Translations under genes and position numbers: made by a program
From: Pelagibacteraceae bacterium AG-349-L17
GTDB lineage: Bacteria > Pseudomonadota > Alphaproteobacteria > Pelagibacterales > Pelagibacteraceae
DNA length: 64,000 bases
Direction: 5' to 3'
NCBI GenBank assembly: GCA_003278805.1
Contig: QCDC01000001.1
Location: forward strand, 1 to 64,000
The notes under the pieces: model-generated
Told to the model about the DNA's origin: nothing
The model's input: only the letters and a program-made list of their open reading frames with translations
The model's database searches: none
Part shown: piece by piece, positions 38,305 to 50,162 of the stretch
How the letters are laid out: every line of letters starts with the position of its first letter
Position numbering within the stretch: position 1 is the first letter of the stretch

Positions 38305-38841
38305 ATGAAAATAATTTATAAAATCATTTCAAATTTTATAAATAACAAATCTTTGTACATTGGTGAAAAAGTGACTTTGTCCGAACATATGATTCAATCA
38401 GCTATGCTTGCTGAAAAAGCTAAGTGTAACAATGATTTAATTTGTGCATGTTTGCTACATGATTATGGTCATTTTCTTTTAGAAAATCCTGATGAATTGG
38501 TTCAAAATAAATTAGACGGAGAACATGAAAATATTGGATATCAGTATCTAAAAAAATTTTTTGGACAAAAAATTGTTGAGCCAATTAAATACCATGTTTT
38601 AGCTAAACGTTATTTAGCTAGAGACAAAAAATATTTTAATTTTTTATCAGATGCGTCAAAAATTAGCCTTAAGTTACAAGGAGGAGTTCTAAATGCTAAA
38701 GAGAGTAAAGAATTTGAAAATAAATCTTACTTTAAGCCATCAATTCTTCTTCGAAAATTTGATGAAGCTGCTAAAAGAACTGACATTAAAATGAAATCTA
38801 TTCATGACTATGAAAAGTTGTTAAGTTCCAAACTTATATGA
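38305..38841 (+). CDS. PhnZ/TmpB-like HD-domain mixed-valent di-iron oxygenase
   Basis: A 178-residue HD-domain protein. The residue spacing matches PhnZ as I recall it: Tyr18, Glu21 (YIGE), His28, His52-Asp53 (LLHDYGH), His56, His74 (GEHENIG), His97 and Lys101 (KYHVLAKRYL) and an Asp near 152 (FDEAAK). The later SLKLQGG is also typical of the phosphonate-associated HD family. PhnZ and TmpB oxidatively cleave the C-P bond of 1-hydroxyalkylphosphonates; TmpB yields glycine betaine. No PhnY-type partner is present. Candidate partners are the TauD-like gene just upstream or the TmpA-like gene at 29938. Its stop overlaps betA (ATGA). Confidence 0.75.
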   Translation: MKIIYKIISNFINNKSLYIGEKVTLSEHMIQSAMLAEKAKCNNDLICACLLHDYGHFLLENPDELVQNKLDGEHENIGYQYLKKFFGQKIVEPIKYHVLAKRYLARDKKYFNFLSDASKISLKLQGGVLNAKESKEFENKSYFKPSILLRKFDEAAKRTDIKMKSIHDYEKLLSSKLI

Positions 38842-40418
38842 ATTTCGATTATTTAATAATTGGTGCTGGAAGTGCAGGCTGTGTACTTGCAAACCGATTG
38901 TCAGAAAATAATCAAAACAATGTAGCAATATTTGAAGCTGGGAAAACGAGTGATATTTGGAAAGTTAACATGCCACTTGCGATTTTATATACTATGCATG
39001 ATCCAAAATATAATTACAAATATTATTCAGAGCCAGAACCTCATTTACATAATAGAAGATTATTTTGTCCAAGAGGAAAAATGATTGGTGGATGTTCTGC
39101 TCATAATGGAATGGTATTTGTAAGAGGAAACCCAAATGATTACCAAAGATGGGCATCTTTTGGATTGGATGATTGGTCGTATGAAAAAGTACTTCCCTTC
39201 TTCAAAAAAATTGAAACATGGTCTGAGGGAGAAAATGAATATCGAGGTGGTAGTGGAATATTGCCCGTAAACCAATCTAAAAATAAAAATCCTTTATTCA
39301 AAGCGTTTGTCGATTCAGCTGGCGAGGCTGGTTATAAAATAAACAACGACATGAATGGTAAAGAACAAGAGGGTTTTGGAATGTACGATGTTACTATTCA
39401 TAAGGGAGAAAGAGCAAGTGTATCTAAGTATTATTTAAATCCTGCTAAAAAAAGAAAGAATTTAAAAGTATTTACAGAAGCTTTTGTTGAAAGAATTATT
39501 TTTGATGGAAAAAAAGCAATTGGAATTGAAGTAAAAATTAAAAATAAAATCGAAAAGATTTATGCAAATAAAGAAGTAATTTTAAGTGGGGGTGCAATTA
39601 ATTCGCCACAATTACTAATGCTTTCTGGAGTTGGTCCAAGCCAACACTTAAAAGATAAAGGAATTGATGTTGTTCATAACTTAGAGGGTGTTGGAAAAAA
39701 CTTACAAGATCACTTAGAAACTTATGTTCAGCAAGAATGCAAAACTAAAGATACCTTATATTCATACGTAAATAAATTAAATATGGTTAGAATTGGAATT
39801 CAATGGTTTTTGAATAGAAGTGGTCCCTGCTCTGCCTCTTTTTTAGAAGCTGGAGGTTTTTGTAAATCATCTCCAGAAAGGGAGTATCCAAATATTCAAT
39901 TTCATTTTTTTCCTGCTTTTGTGATTGATCATGGATTAGTTGATCCAGATAGGCATGGTTACCAATTACACGCTAGCCCAAACCATCCAAAAAGTAGAGG
40001 TCATATAACTTTAAACAGCTCAAACCCTTATGATTATCCAAAAATTCAATTTAATTATCTACAACATGAAGATGATTTAAAGCAAACCATTGAATGTATT
40101 CATGTAGCGAGAAAAATTTTATCACAGGAATCTTTGAAGCCTTTTGCGGGAAAGGAAATTGGACCAGGAGAACATGCTCAAACTAATGAGATATTTGAAG
40201 AATACATTAGGTCTAAAGCAGAGACTGCTTACCACCCATCTTGTACTTTAAAAATGGGTGTAGATAATATGGCTGTTGTAGACCAAAAACTAAAAGTTCA
40301 TGGTGTTGAAAATTTAAGAGTGGTTGATGCATCTGTAATGCCTGAAATTACAAGCGGAAACCTGAATGCTCCAACATTAATGATTGCTGAAAGAGCATCA
40401 GAATTTATTTTAAATTAA
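38838..40418 (+). CDS. betA: GMC-family choline dehydrogenase-like flavoprotein
   Basis: A 526-residue GMC oxidoreductase. The FAD motif is IIGAGSAGCVLANRLSE (6-22), then PRGKMIGGCSAHNGMVFVRG, GAINSPQLLMLSGVGP, and the catalytic region YHPSCTLKMG with the late SGNLNAPTLMIAERA. Choline dehydrogenase (choline to betaine aldehyde) is the nearest match in length and motifs; other alcohol oxidations are possible. It closes the thioesterase-TauD-HD-BetA operon, so it would add another feed into glycine betaine. A matching betaine aldehyde dehydrogenase could be the ALDH at 48681, but that is not linked directly. Confidence 0.83.
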   Translation: MNFDYLIIGAGSAGCVLANRLSENNQNNVAIFEAGKTSDIWKVNMPLAILYTMHDPKYNYKYYSEPEPHLHNRRLFCPRGKMIGGCSAHNGMVFVRGNPNDYQRWASFGLDDWSYEKVLPFFKKIETWSEGENEYRGGSGILPVNQSKNKNPLFKAFVDSAGEAGYKINNDMNGKEQEGFGMYDVTIHKGERASVSKYYLNPAKKRKNLKVFTEAFVERIIFDGKKAIGIEVKIKNKIEKIYANKEVILSGGAINSPQLLMLSGVGPSQHLKDKGIDVVHNLEGVGKNLQDHLETYVQQECKTKDTLYSYVNKLNMVRIGIQWFLNRSGPCSASFLEAGGFCKSSPEREYPNIQFHFFPAFVIDHGLVDPDRHGYQLHASPNHPKSRGHITLNSSNPYDYPKIQFNYLQHEDDLKQTIECIHVARKILSQESLKPFAGKEIGPGEHAQTNEIFEEYIRSKAETAYHPSCTLKMGVDNMAVVDQKLKVHGVENLRVVDASVMPEITSGNLNAPTLMIAERASEFILN

Positions 40419-40420
40419 TA

Positions 40421-41407
40421 TTACTTGTTACGATAAACTGAAATTAAACAAATAATTTCAAACATGATAGAAGCTGCAACCATTGCTGTGATTTGATTTG
40501 GACTATCTTTTGTTGGCATTAAACAAGCTACATCTCCACCAATTACATTTTTTCCTTTTAAACATTGAATAAGTTTTCTTGCCTCATCCATATTAAATCC
40601 TTTATATGCAGGTTCAATATTTGCTACCCCTGGTGCAACTGTTGGATCTAAACAGTCTAAATCAAATGTAACATAAATTGGATTATCCCCTAATCTATCT
40701 AAAATCATTTTTACACATTTTTCATGGCCCCATTCTCTATATTCATCCATTGTTATAACTTGATAACCAATATCATAACTTGCTTGTAACCAATCTAAAG
40801 TTCTTGGATTTCCTCTTATGCCAATCTGAGTACTTGTGTGTGGATCAACATTTCCTTGTTTGACTAAATAAGAAGCCCAATGTGCTGCTGATTTTTTTGC
40901 ACCTAAAAAATGATCTAATTTTTCAAAACAATCTGTGTGGGCATCAAAATGAAGAAATGTAATTTTTTTTCCTTTAGTTAATTTTGAATTTTTTTTTGCT
41001 AAACTTTGAACAATTCCTCCCGTTACTGAGTGATCTCCACCAATTGAAACAACTGGTTTTTCTGCTTGCTCTATATGATCATAAAAAGCTGAAATTCTTT
41101 CTATACATTTTTCATTATCATTAGCTTCAGGAAATGGAACATCTCCCAAGTCGTGAATTTTATTTTCCTTCCAAGGATCAATTTTGTAATCAAAGTGAGA
41201 TCTTCTAAGCATTGCAGAAATATTTCTAACTGCTCTTGGACCTAAGTGTTGATCTCTTTCAGTGGTACCATTTCCTGTGCTATGAGGGACACCGACTAAT
41301 GCAATGTCACAATTTTTAGGGTCTGGATCATTTTTGCATCTAAATAAAGTTGGAATACCCCACCAATAAAGGGTTTCCATCATTATTTTATCTTCTTCTG
41401 AAATCAT
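40421..41407 (-). CDS. Agmatinase-family ureohydrolase, atypical loop
   Basis: A 328-residue manganese ureohydrolase with GGDHSVTGGI, HFDAHTDCFE and TFDLDCLDPTVAPG metal motifs, so all ligands are present. The loop after PTVAPG reads VANIEPAYKGF instead of the GTGTPE found in the protein at 14865, so the substrate pocket differs. Guanidinobutyrase, guanidinopropionase or another guanidino-acid hydrolase are candidates. It ends 2 bases from betA (converging) and is divergent from the DMT pair, 63 bases apart. Confidence 0.83.
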   Translation of the reverse strand: MISEEDKIMMETLYWWGIPTLFRCKNDPDPKNCDIALVGVPHSTGNGTTERDQHLGPRAVRNISAMLRRSHFDYKIDPWKENKIHDLGDVPFPEANDNEKCIERISAFYDHIEQAEKPVVSIGGDHSVTGGIVQSLAKKNSKLTKGKKITFLHFDAHTDCFEKLDHFLGAKKSAAHWASYLVKQGNVDPHTSTQIGIRGNPRTLDWLQASYDIGYQVITMDEYREWGHEKCVKMILDRLGDNPIYVTFDLDCLDPTVAPGVANIEPAYKGFNMDEARKLIQCLKGKNVIGGDVACLMPTKDSPNQITAMVAASIMFEIICLISVYRNK

Positions 41408-41470
41408 AAATTAAATATGACATAAATTTAATAAATTTAAAAACATATTCTTTTTTGATATAGAGCGTAA

Positions 41471-42421
41471 ATGAGCACTCAAAACAATAATCCTAAAGGA
41501 ATAGTCTTCATATTGATAGCCATGATGGTTTTTTCTGTCCAAGACGGAATTATGAAGCATATTTATAATTTTGTTTCTCTTTATGAAATTTACCTAATAA
41601 GAACTGTAGTAAGTTTTGTGCTTATTTTATTATTTTTAATAATTACAAAAAAACCAATAGTATTTAAAAGCCAATATCCTCTTTTAACTTTTACCAGAGT
41701 AATTCTTTTTTTCTTTGGTTTTAGTTCTTTTTATGTTTCTTTGACTGTATTACCACTTGGTACTGCAACAGCTTTATTTTTTGTTACTCCATTTTTAATT
41801 ACAATATTCGCTCACTTTTTTTTAAAAGAAGAAATAGGATTGAGAAGATGGTCTGCTGTAGTTGTGGGATTTATTGGAGTTTATGTAACACTAAATCCTG
41901 ATTTTAGTAATTTTAACTATTTAAGCTTATTACCTATTTTATGTGCGCTTTGTTACTCATTATCTATGATAATAATAAAAAAAACATCTGATAAGGATAG
42001 TGTTTATACACAAACATTTACATTTTATATTGGCGCAATAATTATAAGTATAATTTTTTATTTTATAATTGGTGATGGTAAATATAACGTCTCGGATCAT
42101 CCAGCTTCTCAATTTATATTCAGGGAATGGTTTGTTGATTTTAACTCTAATATTCTATTAATGACTGCAACTGGAGTAACAGCAACTCTTGCATTTCTTT
42201 TTTTATTTACTGCTTACAGTATTGCTTCTCCAGCTGTTGTTTCACCTTTCGAATATTCAATATTATTTTGGTCACCGCTTGTAGGATGGTTATATTTTGA
42301 TGAAATACCCTCATTAAATACAGTGATTGGAATTTTAATTATCGTATCAAGTGGTGTTTATATTTTTATGCGTGAGAAAGCACAAAACCAATCTTTAGCT
42401 ACAGAAAAACCTCTTAGATAA
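41471..42421 (+). CDS. EamA/DMT-family transporter, first of a tandem pair
   Basis: A 316-residue protein with about ten membrane helices in two EamA repeats; typical parts are VFSVQDGIMKHIY, GTATALFFVTPFLITIFAHFFLKEEIGLRRWSAVVVGFIGVYVTL and SPFEYSILFWSPLVGWLYFDEIP. Its stop is followed at once by the ATG of a paralogue of the same length and layout (TAAATG), pointing to tandem duplication. Substrate unknown; it opens the long plus-strand run to 50162. Confidence 0.88.
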   Translation: MSTQNNNPKGIVFILIAMMVFSVQDGIMKHIYNFVSLYEIYLIRTVVSFVLILLFLIITKKPIVFKSQYPLLTFTRVILFFFGFSSFYVSLTVLPLGTATALFFVTPFLITIFAHFFLKEEIGLRRWSAVVVGFIGVYVTLNPDFSNFNYLSLLPILCALCYSLSMIIIKKTSDKDSVYTQTFTFYIGAIIISIIFYFIIGDGKYNVSDHPASQFIFREWFVDFNSNILLMTATGVTATLAFLFLFTAYSIASPAVVSPFEYSILFWSPLVGWLYFDEIPSLNTVIGILIIVSSGVYIFMREKAQNQSLATEKPLR

Positions 42422-43375
42422 ATGACAAAAGATAATAATTCTAAAGGTATTATTTTAATAATCATTGCAATGACATTATTTGCGATGCAGGACTCTTTAA
42501 TTAAATATATTTTTGAGAAAGCCTCTCTTTATGAAATTTTTTTTGGAAGATATTTCGTTGCAGCTATTTTACTTTTTAGTTACATAAAATTTAGAAAACA
42601 GAAAGTTTCACTAAAAACTTACTATCCTGTTTGGACAATTATTAGAGTGGTTCTTCACTTTTTAGCGTTTTCAGCTTTCTTTATTTCTCTTACTTACATG
42701 CCACTAGCAACTGCAAATGCCTTATTTTTTTCTTGTCCTTTTTTTGTATCTATTTTTGCTAAATTTTTTTTGAAAGAATTTATTGGAATAAGAAGATGGT
42801 CAGCAATTGTATTTGGTTTCATAGGAGTTTTTATTGTATTAGACCCAAACTTTTCTGACTTTGAATACAAAAGTTTGCTTCCAGTATTATGTGCATTTTT
42901 TTATGCTGCTTCAATGACCATAACTAAATATACGTCAGATAAAGATGATGTGAATACTCAATTATTTTATTTTTATTTAATAGCCCTAATTTTATGTGGT
43001 CTGATTTATTTGTTCATGGGAAATGGACAATTAAATAACTCAGACTTTGATCCAACTACGCAGTTTATTTTTAGAGAATGGTTTTCAAATATTGAATATA
43101 CCTGGAAATTTATCTTATTTTTTGGTTTTGTTGCCTCTATTGCTTTTCTTTGCATATTTTCAGCATACATTGTTGCTTCTCCTTCAGTAGTTTCTCTGTT
43201 TGAATATTCGTTAATTATAATGTCTATGATACCTGGATATTTTTTATTTAATGAAATTCCATCTGGTAGAACATTTTTTGGAGTTGCTTGTATAATAGCT
43301 GCTGGAATTTATATTTACTTTAGAGAAAAAGCTAGAGATCAATATATTGCAACAGAAACACCAGTAAGAAGATGA
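42422..43375 (+). CDS. EamA/DMT-family transporter, second of a tandem pair
   Basis: A 317-residue ten-helix EamA protein that mirrors the preceding gene along its length: MQDSLIKYIFEKASLYEIFFGRY, ATANALFFSCPFFVSIFAKFFLKEFIGIRRWSAIVFGFIGVFIVLDP, LPVLCAFFYAASMTITKYTSDKDD. The copies are clearly diverged, so the duplication is old. It overlaps the IPNS-like gene by 4 bases. Two coupled DMT subunits might form a heterodimer, as in some small multidrug transporters, but ten-helix members usually act alone. Confidence 0.88.
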   Translation: MTKDNNSKGIILIIIAMTLFAMQDSLIKYIFEKASLYEIFFGRYFVAAILLFSYIKFRKQKVSLKTYYPVWTIIRVVLHFLAFSAFFISLTYMPLATANALFFSCPFFVSIFAKFFLKEFIGIRRWSAIVFGFIGVFIVLDPNFSDFEYKSLLPVLCAFFYAASMTITKYTSDKDDVNTQLFYFYLIALILCGLIYLFMGNGQLNNSDFDPTTQFIFREWFSNIEYTWKFILFFGFVASIAFLCIFSAYIVASPSVVSLFEYSLIIMSMIPGYFLFNEIPSGRTFFGVACIIAAGIYIYFREKARDQYIATETPVRR

Positions 43376-44340
43376 CTAAAACATATATACCAACCATCAA
43401 TATATCTTCACTAATTAAAAATAATTTTGAAACTCAGAGAGCATTTAAAACAATTAAAGAAATTGAAAAAGCTTGTATCAAAGTTGGTTTTTTTCAAATT
43501 ACAGGTCATGGAATAAATTTAAAAGTAATTAAAAAAACATGTGGAGTTGGCAATAAATTTTTTAATTTACCAGATAGCAAAAAGAGGAAATTATCACCAA
43601 AAAAATGGAATAAAAAAAATAAAAATCATTATAGAGGATACTTTCCAAATGATGTTAATGGTAAAGAAGGTTTAGATATAGGTGATTTAAAAGTAACTAA
43701 AAAATATTCGTCAAATCTAAACAATCAATACATAGAGCATCTTAATCTGGGAAAATGTTTAAATAAAAGCTCAATTAGCATTTTAAATAAATATTTTGAT
43801 AACATTTATAGATTGAGTGAAACATTGTTTAAAAGTGTAATAAAACTTAATAAAAAAAATCCTGATATTTCTGGTAAAGCTTTTTCAAGATTAAAAACAT
43901 TAAGTACATTAAGATTTAATTATTACCCTAACCAAACAAAACCAGTGGAAATATCAAAACAAGATGGGGTCGCTCTTGGGTGTGAAACGCATGTTGATAG
44001 TGGAATATTTACAGTTCTCTATCAAGATAGAAAAGGTGGATTGCAGGTACAAAATAGAAAAAACAAAAAATGGTATGATGTACCATTCAACAAAAATGCT
44101 TTAGTAGTAAATACTGGAAGAGCATTAGAGTTTCTAAGCAAAGGTAAATTTAAAGCAACAAATCACAGAGTTTTATGGAATAAAAGTAAGAGACTATCTG
44201 TTCCTTTTTTCTTTGAACCTTCCTATGATTTCAAAATGAACCAATCATTTTTAAATGGAGGTAAATTCGAAAATAATGGTGAAATTTATGAGAAATTTCT
44301 CAATAAATCTTTAAAGAAATTTATTGAATATCAGCGTTAG
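43372..44340 (+). CDS. Isopenicillin-N-synthase-like 2OG-Fe(II) oxygenase
   Basis: A 322-residue oxygenase of the IPNS/plant-2OG family. An N-terminal DIOX_N part (VGFFQITGHGI near 38-48) precedes the jelly roll. Iron ligands are His207 and Asp209 (THVDSG) and His265 (ATNHRV), with Arg274-X-Ser276 for 2-oxoglutarate. Substrate unknown; bacterial relatives hydroxylate varied small molecules. It is coupled to the DMT gene upstream, and after it comes the 105-base leader of the luciferase-like gene. Confidence 0.85.
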   Translation: MTKTYIPTINISSLIKNNFETQRAFKTIKEIEKACIKVGFFQITGHGINLKVIKKTCGVGNKFFNLPDSKKRKLSPKKWNKKNKNHYRGYFPNDVNGKEGLDIGDLKVTKKYSSNLNNQYIEHLNLGKCLNKSSISILNKYFDNIYRLSETLFKSVIKLNKKNPDISGKAFSRLKTLSTLRFNYYPNQTKPVEISKQDGVALGCETHVDSGIFTVLYQDRKGGLQVQNRKNKKWYDVPFNKNALVVNTGRALEFLSKGKFKATNHRVLWNKSKRLSVPFFFEPSYDFKMNQSFLNGGKFENNGEIYEKFLNKSLKKFIEYQR

Positions 44341-44445
44341 TAATTATAAAATTTAGAGATAAAGCGATACATAACTCGTCGATAAATTCATAGATTTACG
44401 AAAGTGGGATCGGTCGTCTTTAAATTAACTTTTAAAGGAGGCTTT
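44341..44445 (+). promoter_or_regulatory. Structured-looking 5' leader of the LLM-ThDP operon
   Basis: This 105-base gap is long for the genome. It contains a hairpin at 44379-44401 (TCG and TAAAT arms with one bulged A, 6-base loop), a G-rich single-stranded stretch (GTGGGATCGG), and a second hairpin at 44418-44437 (CTTTAAA / TTTAAAG) whose right arm takes up part of the ribosome site AAAGGAGG (44434-44441). CGAT at 44365-44368 can pair with ATCG at 44409-44412 to enclose the first hairpin. This could be a translational switch; it matches no riboswitch class that I recognise. Confidence 0.4.
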
Positions 44446-45615
44446 ATGAAATTTGGTTATTTTTGTAATACCACAAACTGGACACACAAACCTTACCATC
44501 AGTTGTTAGATGAAACTAAAGAAATCACAGAATACTGTGATCAAAATAAATGGAATTCAATTTGGTTTACAGAGCATCACTTCAATCATGAAGGAATGGA
44601 ATCTTGTACTAATCCATTGATGATGGGTGCAGATGCAGCTGCTAGAACGAAAAATATTAGAATAGGTCAGGCTGCAAACGTTATTACTTTCCATAATCCA
44701 ATAAGATTAGCAGAAGATATTGCAACATTAGACCAACTTTCAAAAGGAAGAGTTGAGGTAGGTGTAGCAAGAGGAATCTATGGTAGAGAAGCAATAAATT
44801 TAAACAAAGAGGCTGATTTAAAAGATCAGGCTAAAAATTTCAGATTATTTGCTGAAACTTTAGAAGTATTAAAAAAAGCATGGAGTGAAAAATTTTTCAG
44901 TCATCAAGGAGAATTTTATACTTATCCTTCGCCAAATTATGTCTGGCAGCATGATATGAGTCCTCCTAGCGAAGAATTTATGAATATGGAAGACAGTACT
45001 ATGAAAAAAATTAGTGTTGTTCCGCAGCCTTATCAACAGCCACATCCTCCAATTCATCAAGTAGTTGATGGAATTAGATCGATTGAGTGGGCTGCTGAAA
45101 ATAACATCAATGTTATTATGTGGATACCGACTGTAAAAGCTTTGAAACCAAAATTTGAAGCTTATAAAAATAAAAGATCAGAGGTAACAAAGAAAAATAT
45201 ACCACTTGGCGAAGGTGTTTCGCTTGTAAGAGATATGTTCGTTGCAGATACGATGGAAGAAGCAAAAGAGAAGGCCGGCGAACATATGGTAAATTATATG
45301 AGATGGGTTTGCCATTGGAGAGGTTTAGGAAACCATATGGATCCAGGTGAAGAATTACCAGAGACAAAAGGGAAATTAGATTTATTAAATTATGAATTTT
45401 TACATAAAAGAAACATGTTATTTGGAACACCAGAATATGTGATTGATAAAATTCATGAATTAAAATCTGAACTAAATTTACAAAATTTACAAGTTTGGTC
45501 TAATTTTCCAGGTGTAAAGCATAAAGATTGTATGAAAAGTATAAAACTTTTCACAGAGAAAGTTATGCCTCACTTCCAAGATGATTTTGATACTGAAGTA
45601 AAAAAAGTTTCGTGA
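44446..45615 (+). CDS. Luciferase-like (LLM) flavin-dependent monooxygenase
   Basis: A 389-residue bacterial-luciferase-family TIM-barrel protein using reduced flavin and oxygen. The start is the ATG at 44446 because a perfect AAAGGAGG lies 4 bases before it and the protein begins MKFGYFCNTTNW; an in-frame GTG at 44404 lacks support. Typical blocks are WNSIWFTEHHFNHEG, RIGQAANVITFHNPIRLAEDIATLDQLSKGRVEVGVARG and FGTPEYVIDKIHEL. No flavin reductase is next to it. It heads a five-gene coupled unit ending with an aldehyde dehydrogenase. A GTGA overlap couples it to the ThDP enzyme. Confidence 0.87.
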   Translation: MKFGYFCNTTNWTHKPYHQLLDETKEITEYCDQNKWNSIWFTEHHFNHEGMESCTNPLMMGADAAARTKNIRIGQAANVITFHNPIRLAEDIATLDQLSKGRVEVGVARGIYGREAINLNKEADLKDQAKNFRLFAETLEVLKKAWSEKFFSHQGEFYTYPSPNYVWQHDMSPPSEEFMNMEDSTMKKISVVPQPYQQPHPPIHQVVDGIRSIEWAAENNINVIMWIPTVKALKPKFEAYKNKRSEVTKKNIPLGEGVSLVRDMFVADTMEEAKEKAGEHMVNYMRWVCHWRGLGNHMDPGEELPETKGKLDLLNYEFLHKRNMLFGTPEYVIDKIHELKSELNLQNLQVWSNFPGVKHKDCMKSIKLFTEKVMPHFQDDFDTEVKKVS

Positions 45616-47315
45616 ATAAAAAACGAAAAAGAATTAGCGGCGGACAAGCTGCTGTTCAATCATTAAAAAAAGAGAGAGTAAAACATGTTTTTGGACTTAT
45701 TGGTTCAGCAACAATGGAAATGTTTGATGCTCTCTATCATGAAAAAAATATAAAATTTATTGGTGTCAGAGATGAAAGAACTGGAACCCATATGGCTGAT
45801 GGTTATGCAAGAGCCTCGAATAAACCTGGAGTAATTATTGCAGGCCAAAACGGACCTGGTGCTACTAATTTAGTTACAGGTATTGCTCAAGCAAAAGCAG
45901 CTTTTTCACCAGTAGTTGCGCTTGCAGGTTCGTATTCAACAAAAGATAAAATGGAAGATGCATTTCAAGGTTTGGATCAACAGTCTTTGTTTACACCTAT
46001 TACAAAAAAAACGTGGACCGTAAAAAATTCAAAAAATATCCCTAATATTATGAGTAATGCTTTTAATTTATCTATGAGTCCAAGAAGAGGACCTGTTTGT
46101 GTAAATTTACCAAGGAATATTTTAGCAGCTTCTAACTCTTACAATATAAATACCAAAAAACCTTCATTTGTTTCAGAGAGTAAATTAAAAGGTGATAAAG
46201 AAAAAATTGAAAAAACTGCAAATTTAATTAGTTCATCGAACAAAACAGTTATTATTGTTGGTGCTGGAATAAAATATAATTCTAAATATAAAGAGATAAT
46301 AAAATTAGCAGAATTTTGTAATTTACCAATAGTAACTGCAGCTGGACATGGAGATGCAATTCCATTTAATCATAAATTACATGCTGGGCAAATGGGCCCT
46401 AGAGGTAATCCAGTTGCATCAAGACTGGTTAAAGAGGCAAATGTTATTTTGGCAATTGGTACAAGACTTGGGTTTAACTCAACTTTCTACTCATATGAAA
46501 ACATTAATAAAAAAGCAAAAATTGTACATATTGAATTAGAGAAAAAAATGCTTGGTAAATATTTTCCAATAAAGATTGGTATTCATGCAGATGCTGCAAC
46601 AGCAACAAAACAAATTTATGAGCAAATTAAAAAAAACAAAATCGAAATTGATGTTAAAAATTGGACAAATTTATATTTAAAAGAAAGAAGTAAATATTTA
46701 ATTGATAGGGATAACAATAATCTAGGAAAAAATTTTCCTATACAGCCAAAGGGTTTATTTAAAAAACTAAGAAAAGCTTTACCTAAAAATTCTGCAATCA
46801 CTCTAGATGCTGGAACGCTTTGTTTACAAGCCACAGACGCCCTTGAATATTACGATCCTCCTTCTTTATTTACACCTTTAGATTTTGGTTTAGTTGGTTT
46901 CTCTTTTGCTTGTGGTCTTGGTGTTAAAATTGCAAAACCAAAAAAACATGTTGTAAGTCTTATGGGTGATGGTGGATTCGGTATGACAATATCGGAATTA
47001 AGTACTGCTGTAGAATATGGAATAAACACAACGACTATTGTGATGAACAATCAAAGTTGGGGAGCTGAAAAAGCTTATCAAAAAGATTTTTTTGGAAAAA
47101 GATACTTGGGTGCAGATATAACAAGTCCATCTTTTGATAAAGTTGCTGAACTTTACGGAGCAAAAGGATTTAAGGTAACAAAAATTTCACAAATTGATGA
47201 AGCAGTGAGAGCTGCTATTAAAACAAATAAGCCATCAGTTATTGATGTTGATGTAGATCCAAAAGCATTATACAGTTTTAGAAGAGATAGTTTCAAGCAC
47301 AGAGAAAAAAAATGA
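45612..47315 (+). CDS. Thiamine-diphosphate enzyme, acetolactate synthase/Xsc-like
   Basis: A 567-residue ThDP enzyme with the three-domain POX/AHAS layout: N-terminal Pyr domain with the activating Glu55 (VRDERTGTHMADGYARA) and AGQNGPGATNLVTGIAQA, a central domain, and the C-terminal PP domain with GDGGFGMTISEL...NNQSWG. The AGQNGPG and HMADGY parts recall sulfoacetaldehyde acetyltransferase (Xsc) as well as glyoxylate carboligase. It starts with GTG inside the LLM stop. The reaction is unassigned: the monooxygenase upstream may produce its aldehyde or keto acid substrate. It overlaps the next gene by 4 bases. Confidence 0.83.
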   Translation: MNKKRKRISGGQAAVQSLKKERVKHVFGLIGSATMEMFDALYHEKNIKFIGVRDERTGTHMADGYARASNKPGVIIAGQNGPGATNLVTGIAQAKAAFSPVVALAGSYSTKDKMEDAFQGLDQQSLFTPITKKTWTVKNSKNIPNIMSNAFNLSMSPRRGPVCVNLPRNILAASNSYNINTKKPSFVSESKLKGDKEKIEKTANLISSSNKTVIIVGAGIKYNSKYKEIIKLAEFCNLPIVTAAGHGDAIPFNHKLHAGQMGPRGNPVASRLVKEANVILAIGTRLGFNSTFYSYENINKKAKIVHIELEKKMLGKYFPIKIGIHADAATATKQIYEQIKKNKIEIDVKNWTNLYLKERSKYLIDRDNNNLGKNFPIQPKGLFKKLRKALPKNSAITLDAGTLCLQATDALEYYDPPSLFTPLDFGLVGFSFACGLGVKIAKPKKHVVSLMGDGGFGMTISELSTAVEYGINTTTIVMNNQSWGAEKAYQKDFFGKRYLGADITSPSFDKVAELYGAKGFKVTKISQIDEAVRAAIKTNKPSVIDVDVDPKALYSFRRDSFKHREKK

Positions 47316-47899
47316 ATTTAGAGTTAAGAAAATTTGCAAAATTTGTTGATAAAACTTTCATCGAAGGTGGTAAAGAGGCAAAAGAACCAGTCTTGCTAGT
47401 TTCTGTAGCGGCGGTATTTAAAAATCCATGGCACGGACAAGGGTTTGTTGAGAATTTAAGACCTGCAATTTTAGATCTTGCTCCAAAATTGGGAGATTTA
47501 CTTGTACCAGAACTAATCAAAGAAATAGGTTCACCAGAAAAAATATTAGCTTATGGCAAGGCAGGCATTGTTGGTTTAAATGGGGAGATTGAACATGCTT
47601 CTGCTTTTATACACACATTAAGATTTGGAAATAAATTTAGAGATGCTGTCGGAGGAACTTCTTATTTGAGCTTCACTAATACACGAGGACCAGCTGGGTC
47701 AAAAATTTCAATACCTATGATGCACAAAACAGACTCTGGTTTAAGGCCCTACTATTTAACTCACGAATTTACTATTCACGATGCTCCATTTGATGATGAA
47801 GTTGTTATAGCTATTGGAGGTGCTTCTAGTGGAAGAGCGCATGCTAGAACAGGTGATAGATATCAAGATATGAAAGAAATGGGAATTGAGCCTAAATAA
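47312..47899 (+). CDS. AA_synth (DUF1185) family protein
   Basis: A 195-residue soluble protein that I assign to the 'amino acid synthesis' family (PF06684, formerly DUF1185), from VSVAAVFKNPWHGQGFVENL, GKAGIVGLNGEIEHASAFIHTLRFGN, and the Gly-rich C-terminal VVIAIGGASSGRAHARTGDRYQDM. Its biochemical role is not known to me despite solved family structures. It is commonly met next to luciferase-like monooxygenases and hydrolases, as here. It is coupled to the ThDP gene (4-base overlap) and 6 bases ahead of the hydrolase start. Confidence 0.78.
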   Translation: MNLELRKFAKFVDKTFIEGGKEAKEPVLLVSVAAVFKNPWHGQGFVENLRPAILDLAPKLGDLLVPELIKEIGSPEKILAYGKAGIVGLNGEIEHASAFIHTLRFGNKFRDAVGGTSYLSFTNTRGPAGSKISIPMMHKTDSGLRPYYLTHEFTIHDAPFDDEVVIAIGGASSGRAHARTGDRYQDMKEMGIEPK

Positions 47900-47905
47900 T
47901 TCTTG

Positions 47906-48688
47906 ATGACAACTGGGACTACTGAAACAGGAACTTACTATTTCTATAATAAAAAAGAGCAAGATATACCAATAGTATTTATTCATGGAGTGGGGTTAAC
48001 CTATGAAATTTGGCAACCCCAATTAGAATTTTTTAAAAATTACAGCACACTTTCATACGATATATTGGGACATGGTAAATCTTCATTAAATAAAGACAAC
48101 ATTACTTTTGATGACTTTTCAGATCAATTAATTGATCTAATTGATCATTTAAAAATAAAAAAAATACATGTTGTTGGTTTCTCGATTGGTTCATTGATTG
48201 CAAGAAATTTTGCTACAAAATTTAGTGACCGTTTAAAATCTTTAACACTTTTATGTTCGATCTACAAAAGATCAGAAGAGCAGCAAAAAATAGTAAATCA
48301 AAGATTTGAGCAAGCAAAAAAAGAATTAAAACTTTCTAAACAAGCGCTAAAGAGATGGTTTACAGATAAATATCTTGAAAATAACCCAAGTATTTATGAA
48401 AAAATAAGTAATATTTTATCTTCGAATAACATGAAAAATTTTCTTAAAGTTTATGAACTTTTTGTCAATCACAAAAATGATGAAAATTTTGACAAAATAA
48501 ATGTTAATACTTTAATTATGACTGGAGAATTTGATATTGGTTCAACAGTTGAAATGTCAAATGAATTAAACAAAATTATTACTAACAGTCAATTAAAGAT
48601 AATTAAAGACGGCAAACATCTTTGTGGTATTGAATGTGCGAATGATGTAAATTTATCAATCAAAAACTTTGTTGAAGAAAATGAGTAA
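47906..48688 (+). CDS. Alpha/beta hydrolase
   Basis: A 260-residue alpha/beta-hydrolase-fold enzyme. The oxyanion segment is FIHGVGLTYEIW (25-36), the nucleophile is Ser93 in VVGFSIGSLIA, the acidic residue is in MTGEFDIGS and the His in DGKHLCGIE. It resembles RutD and enol-lactonase types. The ATG at 47906 is used; a TTG one codon earlier is less likely. Its last 8 bases overlap the aldehyde dehydrogenase start. It may hydrolyse an ester, lactone or carbamate formed by the LLM step. Confidence 0.83.
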   Translation: MTTGTTETGTYYFYNKKEQDIPIVFIHGVGLTYEIWQPQLEFFKNYSTLSYDILGHGKSSLNKDNITFDDFSDQLIDLIDHLKIKKIHVVGFSIGSLIARNFATKFSDRLKSLTLLCSIYKRSEEQQKIVNQRFEQAKKELKLSKQALKRWFTDKYLENNPSIYEKISNILSSNNMKNFLKVYELFVNHKNDENFDKINVNTLIMTGEFDIGSTVEMSNELNKIITNSQLKIIKDGKHLCGIECANDVNLSIKNFVEENE

Positions 48689-50162
48689 ATTAAAACATTA
48701 TAAAATGTATATTGATGGAGAATGGATAGATTCCGAAAGTAAAAAAACTTTCGAAACACTAAACCCTGAAAATAATGAACCTTGGGCAACAGTACCTGAA
48801 GCTAGCGCTAAAGATGTAGATAAGGCAGTCAAAGCAGCACAAAAAGCTTTTGAGGGAGAATGGCCAAAATTACTTCCAAGAGACAGGGCAAAATTTTTAA
48901 GAGCAATCGGAGATCAATTAAGAGTCAATGCTGAAATGCTTGGAGAAATTGAAACGATTGATACTGGAAAACTTTTTAGAGAAACAAAAAAACAAGCAAT
49001 TTATATTGCAGAATATTATGATTACTATGCAGGATTAGCTGACAAAGTCGAGGGTACTGTTCTACCAATTGATAAACCAAATATTCAAGCCATCACTACA
49101 AGAATTCCTATTGGAGTAGTTGCAGCAATTATCCCTTGGAATTCACAAATGTTTTTAACTGCAACAAAATTAGCGCCAGCTTTAGCAATGGGAAATACTG
49201 TTGTTATTAAATCTTCAGAACTTGCCCCAGCAGTTTTATTTGAGTTTGCAAAATTAATTGAAAAAACTGGAATACCTAAAGGAGTTGTTAATGTACTAAC
49301 TGGTTTTGGTGATCCATGTGGCAAAGCTTTGACTACGCATGATTTAGTTGAAAAAATTGCTTTTACTGGAGGGCCTGAAACTGCAAGACATATAATAAAA
49401 AATTCAGCTGAAAATCTTTCTGAAGTAAGTTTAGAATTAGGTGGCAAAAGCCCAGTTGCTGTATTTGATGATGCAGAACAAGAAAATGCTATTAATGGAA
49501 TTACAGCAGGAATATTTGGTGCAAGTGGTCAGAGTTGTATAGCTGGTTCAAGACTTTATATTCAAAAAGGAATTTATGATGAATTTTTAGATAAACTTTC
49601 TAAACGCGCATCAAAAATTAAAATCGGAGCTCCAATGGATGCCAAAACAGAGATGGGGCCCCTTAGTAGTTTCAAACAATTAGAAGTTATTGAAAAGAAT
49701 ATAAAAAATACTATTGATCAAGGTGGTAAAATCAAATGTGGAGGTAAAAGAGACTCATTTTCAAATAAAGGATATTACTTTCCTCCAACAATTATTGAAT
49801 GTGATAATCATAATCTTCCAGTAGCAGAAAACGAATTGTTTGGACCTGTATTATCAGTGATGAAATTTGATACTGAAGAAGAGGTAATTGAAAAAATGAA
49901 TGATAATCAATATGGATTATCATCAGGTGTATACACTAGCAATCTTGCAAGAGGAATGAGAGTTTCTAAAGCGATCAGAGCAGGAATTACTTTTGTGAAT
50001 ACTTATAGATTAATTTCACCTTCTGCGCCATTTGGTGGAATTAAAGACAGTGGTTATGGCAAAGAAGCAGGTCTAGACTCTATAAAAGATTACACCAGAG
50101 TAAAAACAACTTGGTTTTACACTTCAGACGAGCCTACGCTTGATCCTTTTTCTATAAGATAA
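48681..50162 (+). CDS. NAD(P)-dependent aldehyde dehydrogenase (betaine-aldehyde-dehydrogenase-like)
   Basis: A 493-residue ALDH. It opens MSKLKHYKMYIDGEWIDSESKKTFETLNP, has IIPWNSQMFLTATKLAPALAMG, the general-base Glu in LELGGKSPV and the catalytic Cys in ASGQSCIAGSRL; the C-terminus is APFGGIKDSGYGKEAGLDSI. It is more distant from the other two ALDHs in the window. The start at 48681 gives an ATGAGTAA overlap with the hydrolase; a TTG at 48669 is an artefact. It closes the LLM operon and converges on panB (12 bases). Substrate is presumably the final aldehyde of that pathway. Confidence 0.87.
   Translation: MSKLKHYKMYIDGEWIDSESKKTFETLNPENNEPWATVPEASAKDVDKAVKAAQKAFEGEWPKLLPRDRAKFLRAIGDQLRVNAEMLGEIETIDTGKLFRETKKQAIYIAEYYDYYAGLADKVEGTVLPIDKPNIQAITTRIPIGVVAAIIPWNSQMFLTATKLAPALAMGNTVVIKSSELAPAVLFEFAKLIEKTGIPKGVVNVLTGFGDPCGKALTTHDLVEKIAFTGGPETARHIIKNSAENLSEVSLELGGKSPVAVFDDAEQENAINGITAGIFGASGQSCIAGSRLYIQKGIYDEFLDKLSKRASKIKIGAPMDAKTEMGPLSSFKQLEVIEKNIKNTIDQGGKIKCGGKRDSFSNKGYYFPPTIIECDNHNLPVAENELFGPVLSVMKFDTEEEVIEKMNDNQYGLSSGVYTSNLARGMRVSKAIRAGITFVNTYRLISPSAPFGGIKDSGYGKEAGLDSIKDYTRVKTTWFYTSDEPTLDPFSIR

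Follow-up and report, generated by a model that had tools for sequence, protein, structure and literature searches.

A covarying leader RNA before the LLM operon of SAR11 bacteria, a candidate translational riboswitch

Introduction

SAR11 bacteria are among the most abundant cell groups of the ocean and have few transcription factors. The described RNA with the layout nearest to that of the leader reported here is the xanthine riboswitch (NMT1; PMC7373994, PMC8266621). The two share a rod of helix P1, junction J1, a short helix P2a, junction J2 and hairpin P2b, conserved bases placed mostly in J1 and J2, occurrence in proteobacteria, and translational control, which is predicted in our case. 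The THF-II riboswitch (folE motif, PMC6800512) resembles the leader in its two-stem aptamer, asymmetric bulge, sequestered ribosome site and presence in alphaproteobacteria. From SAR11 itself, the survey of HIMB5 (Stav 2019, PMC6429828) features candidates of which two are similar in part as described there: RS05825, a SAR11-restricted orphan with one gene association, a conserved internal loop and presumed translational control, and TIGR03647, a SAR11 leader whose conserved CUUU is proposed to pair with a purine-rich ribosome site. Here, we analyse a leader RNA in a 64,000-nucleotide stretch of DNA from Pelagibacteraceae bacterium AG-349-L17 (the window), where it lies between the genes of a 2OG oxygenase and a luciferase-like monooxygenase (LLM).

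Results

The leader RNA and its operon

The last base of the 2OG oxygenase stop codon is 44340 and the ATG of LLM stands at 44446, which bears out the 105-base gap (44341-44445) before the LLM operon that the original prediction had singled out. A covariance model of the RNA (R2) matches the window at 44361-44448 with 90.6 bits. The features of the locus are as follows.

44324-44352, + strand: predicted sigma-70-like promoter, TTGAAT (44324-44329), 17-base spacer, TAAAAT (44347-44352)
44361-44445, + strand: structured leader RNA of about 85 nt, aptamer-like core plus Shine-Dalgarno hairpin
44362-44364, + strand: 5' strand of the P1 extension, AAG, pairing with CUU at 44418-44420
44365-44368, + strand: P1 5' strand, CGAU, partner GUCG at 44413-44416
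44369-44374, + strand: 5' strand of junction J1, ACAUAA
44375-44377, + strand: P2a 5' strand, CUC, partner GGG at 44406-44408
44379-44401, + strand: P2b, a hairpin of variable length with compensatory changes
44402-44412, + strand: 3' half of the core (junction strand AAGU, P2a GGG, junction strand AUCG)
44413-44416, + strand: P1 3' strand, GUCG
44417-44438, + strand: P3, anti-Shine-Dalgarno hairpin (44417-44424 with 44431-44438)
44434-44441, + strand: Shine-Dalgarno site AAAGGAGG, read directly
44446-45615, + strand: LLM, luciferase-like (flavin) monooxygenase, first gene of the operon (PF00296)
45612-47315, + strand: TPP-dependent enzyme, acetolactate synthase / sulfoacetaldehyde acetyltransferase-like
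47312-47899, + strand: AA_synth family protein (PF06684, DUF1185)
47903-48688, + strand: alpha/beta hydrolase, enol-lactonase-like
48669-50162, + strand: aldehyde dehydrogenase

P1 and P2b enclose a near-invariant core, ACAUAACUC...AAGYGGGAU. Across the leaders, the consensus reads AAAG-CGAU-ACAUAA-CUC-R-[P2b]-AAGY-GGG-AUCG-RUCG-W-CUUU...AAAGGAGG. The element ACAUAACUC is unchanged in 141 of 142 distinct leaders; J1 is ACAUAA in the same number and ACAUAG in the other one. The CUUU of P3 is paired with AAAG of the Shine-Dalgarno site, and CUU at 44418-44420 is contested between P3 and the P1 extension. Of the parts that had been predicted from the window, the first hairpin (44379-44401) coincides exactly with P2b, and the second (44418-44437) corresponds to P3 and covers the initial bases of AAAGGAGG. 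The stretch between them had been taken for a G-rich linker; it is in fact the conserved 3' half of the core (AAGU-GGG-AUCG-GUCG). A conserved ORF or peptide leader was looked for in the 142 distinct leaders and none was found, since the core lengths are spread over all three frames and an ATG precedes the site in just 14 of the leaders. An upstream ORF or peptide leader was thus rejected.

Downstream of the RNA, the gene order is LLM-(TPP enzyme)-AA_synth-hydrolase-aldehyde dehydrogenase. Several of the SAR11 operon copies lack the TPP enzyme gene, and a gene for a branched-chain-type binding protein often follows aldehyde dehydrogenase. In some SAR11 genomes, the operon also contains a small SAM-dependent methyltransferase gene (L114, 7585-8214; L112, 5384-6013). 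Upstream of the RNA, the window carries genes for a GMC oxidoreductase, an arginase-family protein, two tandem EamA transporters and the 2OG-Fe(II) oxygenase (38838-44340). The GMC, EamA and 2OG genes adjoin the RNA repeatedly across several SAR11 genomes and may share a metabolism with the LLM operon.

Predicted promoter and transcript start

The predicted transcript start, at about 44359-44361, coincides with the 5' end of the RNA. Taken alone, the TTGAAT-17-TAAAAT of the window is unexceptional. Over 65 non-redundant loci, the best -35/-10 pair ending 3-10 nt 5' of the RNA scored 9.52; mononucleotide shuffles gave 8.16 ± 0.13, and displaced searches 7.7-8.3. Transcript starts downstream of 44400 would count against a switch in this gap; promoter prediction places the start well before that point, and the claim stands in this respect. 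An intrinsic terminator was sought in the window and none was found, so transcriptional control is unlikely.

Covariation of the helices

The folding energy of the window leader as a single sequence is ordinary (z -1.24, with 27 of 200 shuffles equally good; z -0.99 from the predicted transcript start). It was therefore rejected as evidence, and the signal is comparative rather than energetic. In alignment A3, a sequence-based MAFFT alignment of 74 leaders, standard pairs fill 94.0% of 1309 pair cells, against 88.6 ± 0.5 after shuffling, and changes on both sides occur at 10 of 18 pairs, against 4.4 ± 1.2. The cells with two-sided changes number 71 (shuffled mean, 31.5), and 0 of 500 shuffles matched either the observed pairing or the two-sided changes. 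When partners were shifted by 1-3 columns, paired cells fell to 29-54%. Arm-swap permutation gave z values of -6.9 for P2b, -6.7 for P3 and a weak -1.8 for P1; relatedness inflates such tests, and we therefore rely on the two-sided changes and the slides.

Individual substitutions illustrate the pairing of each helix. P1 occurs as AGAC/GUUU in L043 and as GCGU/GCGC in L133, where three pairs are altered together. P2b shows changes from UA to CG, from GC to AU, and from UA to both AU and CG; in family f174, its closing U-A pair is replaced by C-G. The alternates of P3 include CUUUAAA/UUUAAAG, CUUAGAU/AUUUAAG and CUUUUAUU/AAUAAAAG. P2a is invariant, including one U-G pair, which fixes the sense strand. 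The compensatory changes expected of a true structure are thus present in P1, P2b and P3, and the original observation is confirmed in a stronger form than first claimed. A conserved, covarying cis-regulatory RNA at this position is almost certainly real.

Distribution and linkage to LLM

A nucleotide-level search through 297 genomes of the family returned strong leader matches in about 60, and wherever the upstream gene differs, identity sets in sharply at the RNA's 5' end. A covariance model built from SAR11 family f1 alone (R1) detects the RNA across two families (f1 and f174), in 135 of the 397 Pelagibacterales genomes. The f174 copies are predicted by this f1-built model at E ~2e-7 and are likewise placed before LLM. 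When R1 was run on 385 genomes across the class in search of the RNA beyond SAR11, it detected the window's own genome alone, and a search of plasmids for homologues found none. The RNA is present in 98 of 99 SAR11 genomes with LLM (97 in the R1 list, and G701 found separately); in the 99th, G679, LLM is cut at the contig start. The complete genome G078 is among the carriers. Scanning named GTDB genomes by pattern gave at least 119 stretches. Among the matches listed, at 80 loci, 78 of 81 RNA copies precede LLM, and the remaining three comprise one that is cut off and two stranded remnants.

Several matches were considered separately. L228, L268 and L227, in genomes named as Gammaproteobacteria, TMED61 and MarineAlpha5, were rejected as new gene contexts: all three precede an LLM of 70-85% identity and thus come from SAR11-like or misnamed bins. 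The match in a viral contig (L099) lies inside coding sequence and was dismissed as chance. In L105 (5165-6766; G884:C5), the RNA occurs twice with a reverse-strand methyltransferase-like gene between the copies, one following a 2OG oxygenase gene and having a decayed 3' end, the other preceding LLM. In L249 (reverse strand, about 91-455; AG-916-I19), the RNA is followed by just a C-terminal remnant of aldehyde dehydrogenase; the operon appears to have been deleted and the leader to have survived. A second, stranded copy in L106 (1792-1865; G074:C2) stands without LLM, has lost the P3 region and adjoins an arylmalonate-decarboxylase-like gene. The non-SAR11 alphaproteobacterial locus L200 (5746-14480) has LLM-AA_synth-hydrolase-aldehyde dehydrogenase together with a flavin reductase, a Rieske oxygenase, an FAD oxidoreductase and a LysR regulator, and the RNA is absent from it; the type of regulator is apparently swapped relative to the SAR11 operon.

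The linkage to a single operon, the near-perfect co-occurrence with LLM and the retention of the RNA while LLM diverges down to 55% identity would also follow if the leader were a protein-binding autoregulatory element, in which one of the operon's enzymes, or some other RNA-binding protein, reads the invariant loops and gates the Shine-Dalgarno site. We consider this improbable. The operon products are without an RNA-binding domain, and invariant junctions combined with a hairpin of variable length look, in our judgement, more like an aptamer. Moreover, the operon outside SAR11 has a LysR gene and lacks the RNA, which indicates that the enzymes do not depend on it.

Predicted competing folds at the Shine-Dalgarno site

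P3 is more stable than expected, with a mean of -3.3 kcal/mol, whereas dinucleotide shuffles give -0.58 ± 0.10. RNAalifold, unprompted, picks a P3 whose extension pairs GUC of the P1 strand with GGC, GGU or GAU beside the site; in the window, this alternative joins 44412-44415 (GGUC) with 44440-44443 (GGCU). The register of the P3 extension is paired in 0.805 of cells against 0.779 after shuffling, a mild excess, and the neighbouring registers are 32-66% paired. When the window transcript is folded from the promoter start, the best prediction includes P3 and its extension. In the predicted ligand-free fold, P3 thus grows into the P1 strand and GGAGG is buried, and in the aptamer fold GGAGG is exposed. 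The mean probability that the Shine-Dalgarno site is unpaired over 71 leaders is 0.21 in the free fold and 0.45 with P1 and P2a forced, and forcing the aptamer fold increases accessibility in 63 of the 71. Both competing elements (2 or more pairs in the P1 extension, 4 or more in P3) occur in 53/71 leaders; one of them is absent in 18/71, and P3 is not clear in at least one leader (L057). The competing folds are mutually exclusive, which suggests an ON switch, short of proof.

An OFF-type riboswitch would work in the opposite direction, with P1 stacked on P3 and a ligand stabilising the masked site in product feedback. The P1 core and P3 do coexist in the predicted fold of leaders lacking the P1 extension (for example L029), and the xanthine riboswitches that precede oxidative purine genes act as OFF switches (PMC7373994). 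The rise in accessibility in those 63 leaders points the other way, and the free fold masks the site already; we regard the OFF type as unlikely. An RNA thermometer or passive structured leader, with P3 melted by heat and the core merely stabilising the mRNA, draws on the weak, A-U-rich P3 (about -3 to -4 kcal/mol) and is highly implausible, because it leaves the identity of ACAUAACUC and the conserved AAGYGGGAU unexplained.

Discussion

A proposed ON switch and its ligand

The RNA in the SAR11 LLM gap probably responds to a small molecule by exposing the ribosome-binding site of LLM, the first gene. Covariation, promoter position and operon linkage support the proposal that the gap holds an RNA switch, and conservation and the mutual exclusion of the two folds were likewise observed computationally; ligand binding, the ON direction and the identity of the ligand are what we infer. 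The remark that the operon has no protein regulator also holds, as there is no adjacent regulator gene within the window. It is very likely that the RNA is a translational riboswitch that binds a ligand, whether ON or OFF, and there is a good chance that it is an orphan of the ON type for a metabolite of the LLM pathway. Under this ON model, transcription would start at about 44360, and P1, P2a and P2b would stack around the junctions ACAUAA/AUCG and R/AAGY to form the aptamer. Without ligand, CUUU and GUC of the P1 3' strand would pair with AAAG and GGC, so that AAAGGAGG is hidden by P3 and its extension. Ligand binding would stabilise P1, which reclaims these bases from P3, frees the site and allows the operon to be translated.

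The ligand may be a substrate or an intermediate of the LLM pathway. The RNA stands before one operon only, so gene context cannot tell these two apart, nor can it distinguish between a small ligand and a protein. The operon enzymes and the non-SAR11 version suggest that the pathway degrades a nitrogen-containing ring or a betaine by oxidation. It is conceivable, if rather doubtful, that the RNA forms a new SAR11-restricted riboswitch class sensing an osmolyte-like plankton metabolite and switching on its oxidative catabolism; the ligand would then be, for example, an N-methylated pyridine (homarine, trigonelline) or a ring-opening product. We know of no riboswitch for an N-methylated pyridine-type compound. 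The work on a homarine pathway that PMC13390433 cites (Nat Microbiol 2026) may serve, by analogy, as a lead only. If the ON model is right, the RNA would add a riboswitch class with a small aptamer (~55 nt) and a covarying ribosome-site switch before an uncharacterised catabolic operon, and the identity of its ligand would name the pathway, that is, the dissolved compound that the operon consumes. With 142 distinct leaders, near-invariant junctions and a short length, it is suited to in-line probing at once.

Comparison with known RNA classes

A search of Rfam 15 (4227 families) gave nothing above the gathering threshold, and at E up to 10 nothing more than expected by chance. The description of the RNA as new thus holds against Rfam 15 and the featured HIMB5 candidates, the scope of the comparison; the leader might conceivably be listed already, as an unnamed motif, among the supplementary motifs of that survey (HRC-1, HRC-2 and others; PMC6429828). 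As featured in the survey, the candidates TIGR03647, fcbT1-I/II and RS05825 belong to symporter, fcbT1 and RS05825 contexts (PMC6429828), whereas the leader here precedes LLM. RS05825 is set apart by its described layout: it has three hairpins, with P3 placed 8-12 nt before the ribosome site, and precedes a gene of unknown function (PMC6429828), whereas in the LLM leader the last hairpin overlaps the site. TIGR03647, by the same description, always precedes a solute/sodium symporter subunit gene and is unlike the LLM leader in architecture (PMC6429828). The THF-II riboswitch holds its ribosome site within the aptamer shoulder and stands before folE in Rhizobiales (PMC6800512); the SAR11 leader has no Rfam match.

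The xanthine class was rejected in spite of the similar layout. The NMT1 model gave no match at E up to 10 on 131 window bases or on L101. The 5' strand of J1 is GAAGCG in the NMT1 structure paper and ACAUAA in the SAR11 leader, and an A-U on the J1 3' strand is the only J1 feature in common. The downstream genes also differ: those of NMT1 serve purine oxidation and transport, whereas the leader described here stands before the LLM operon alone.
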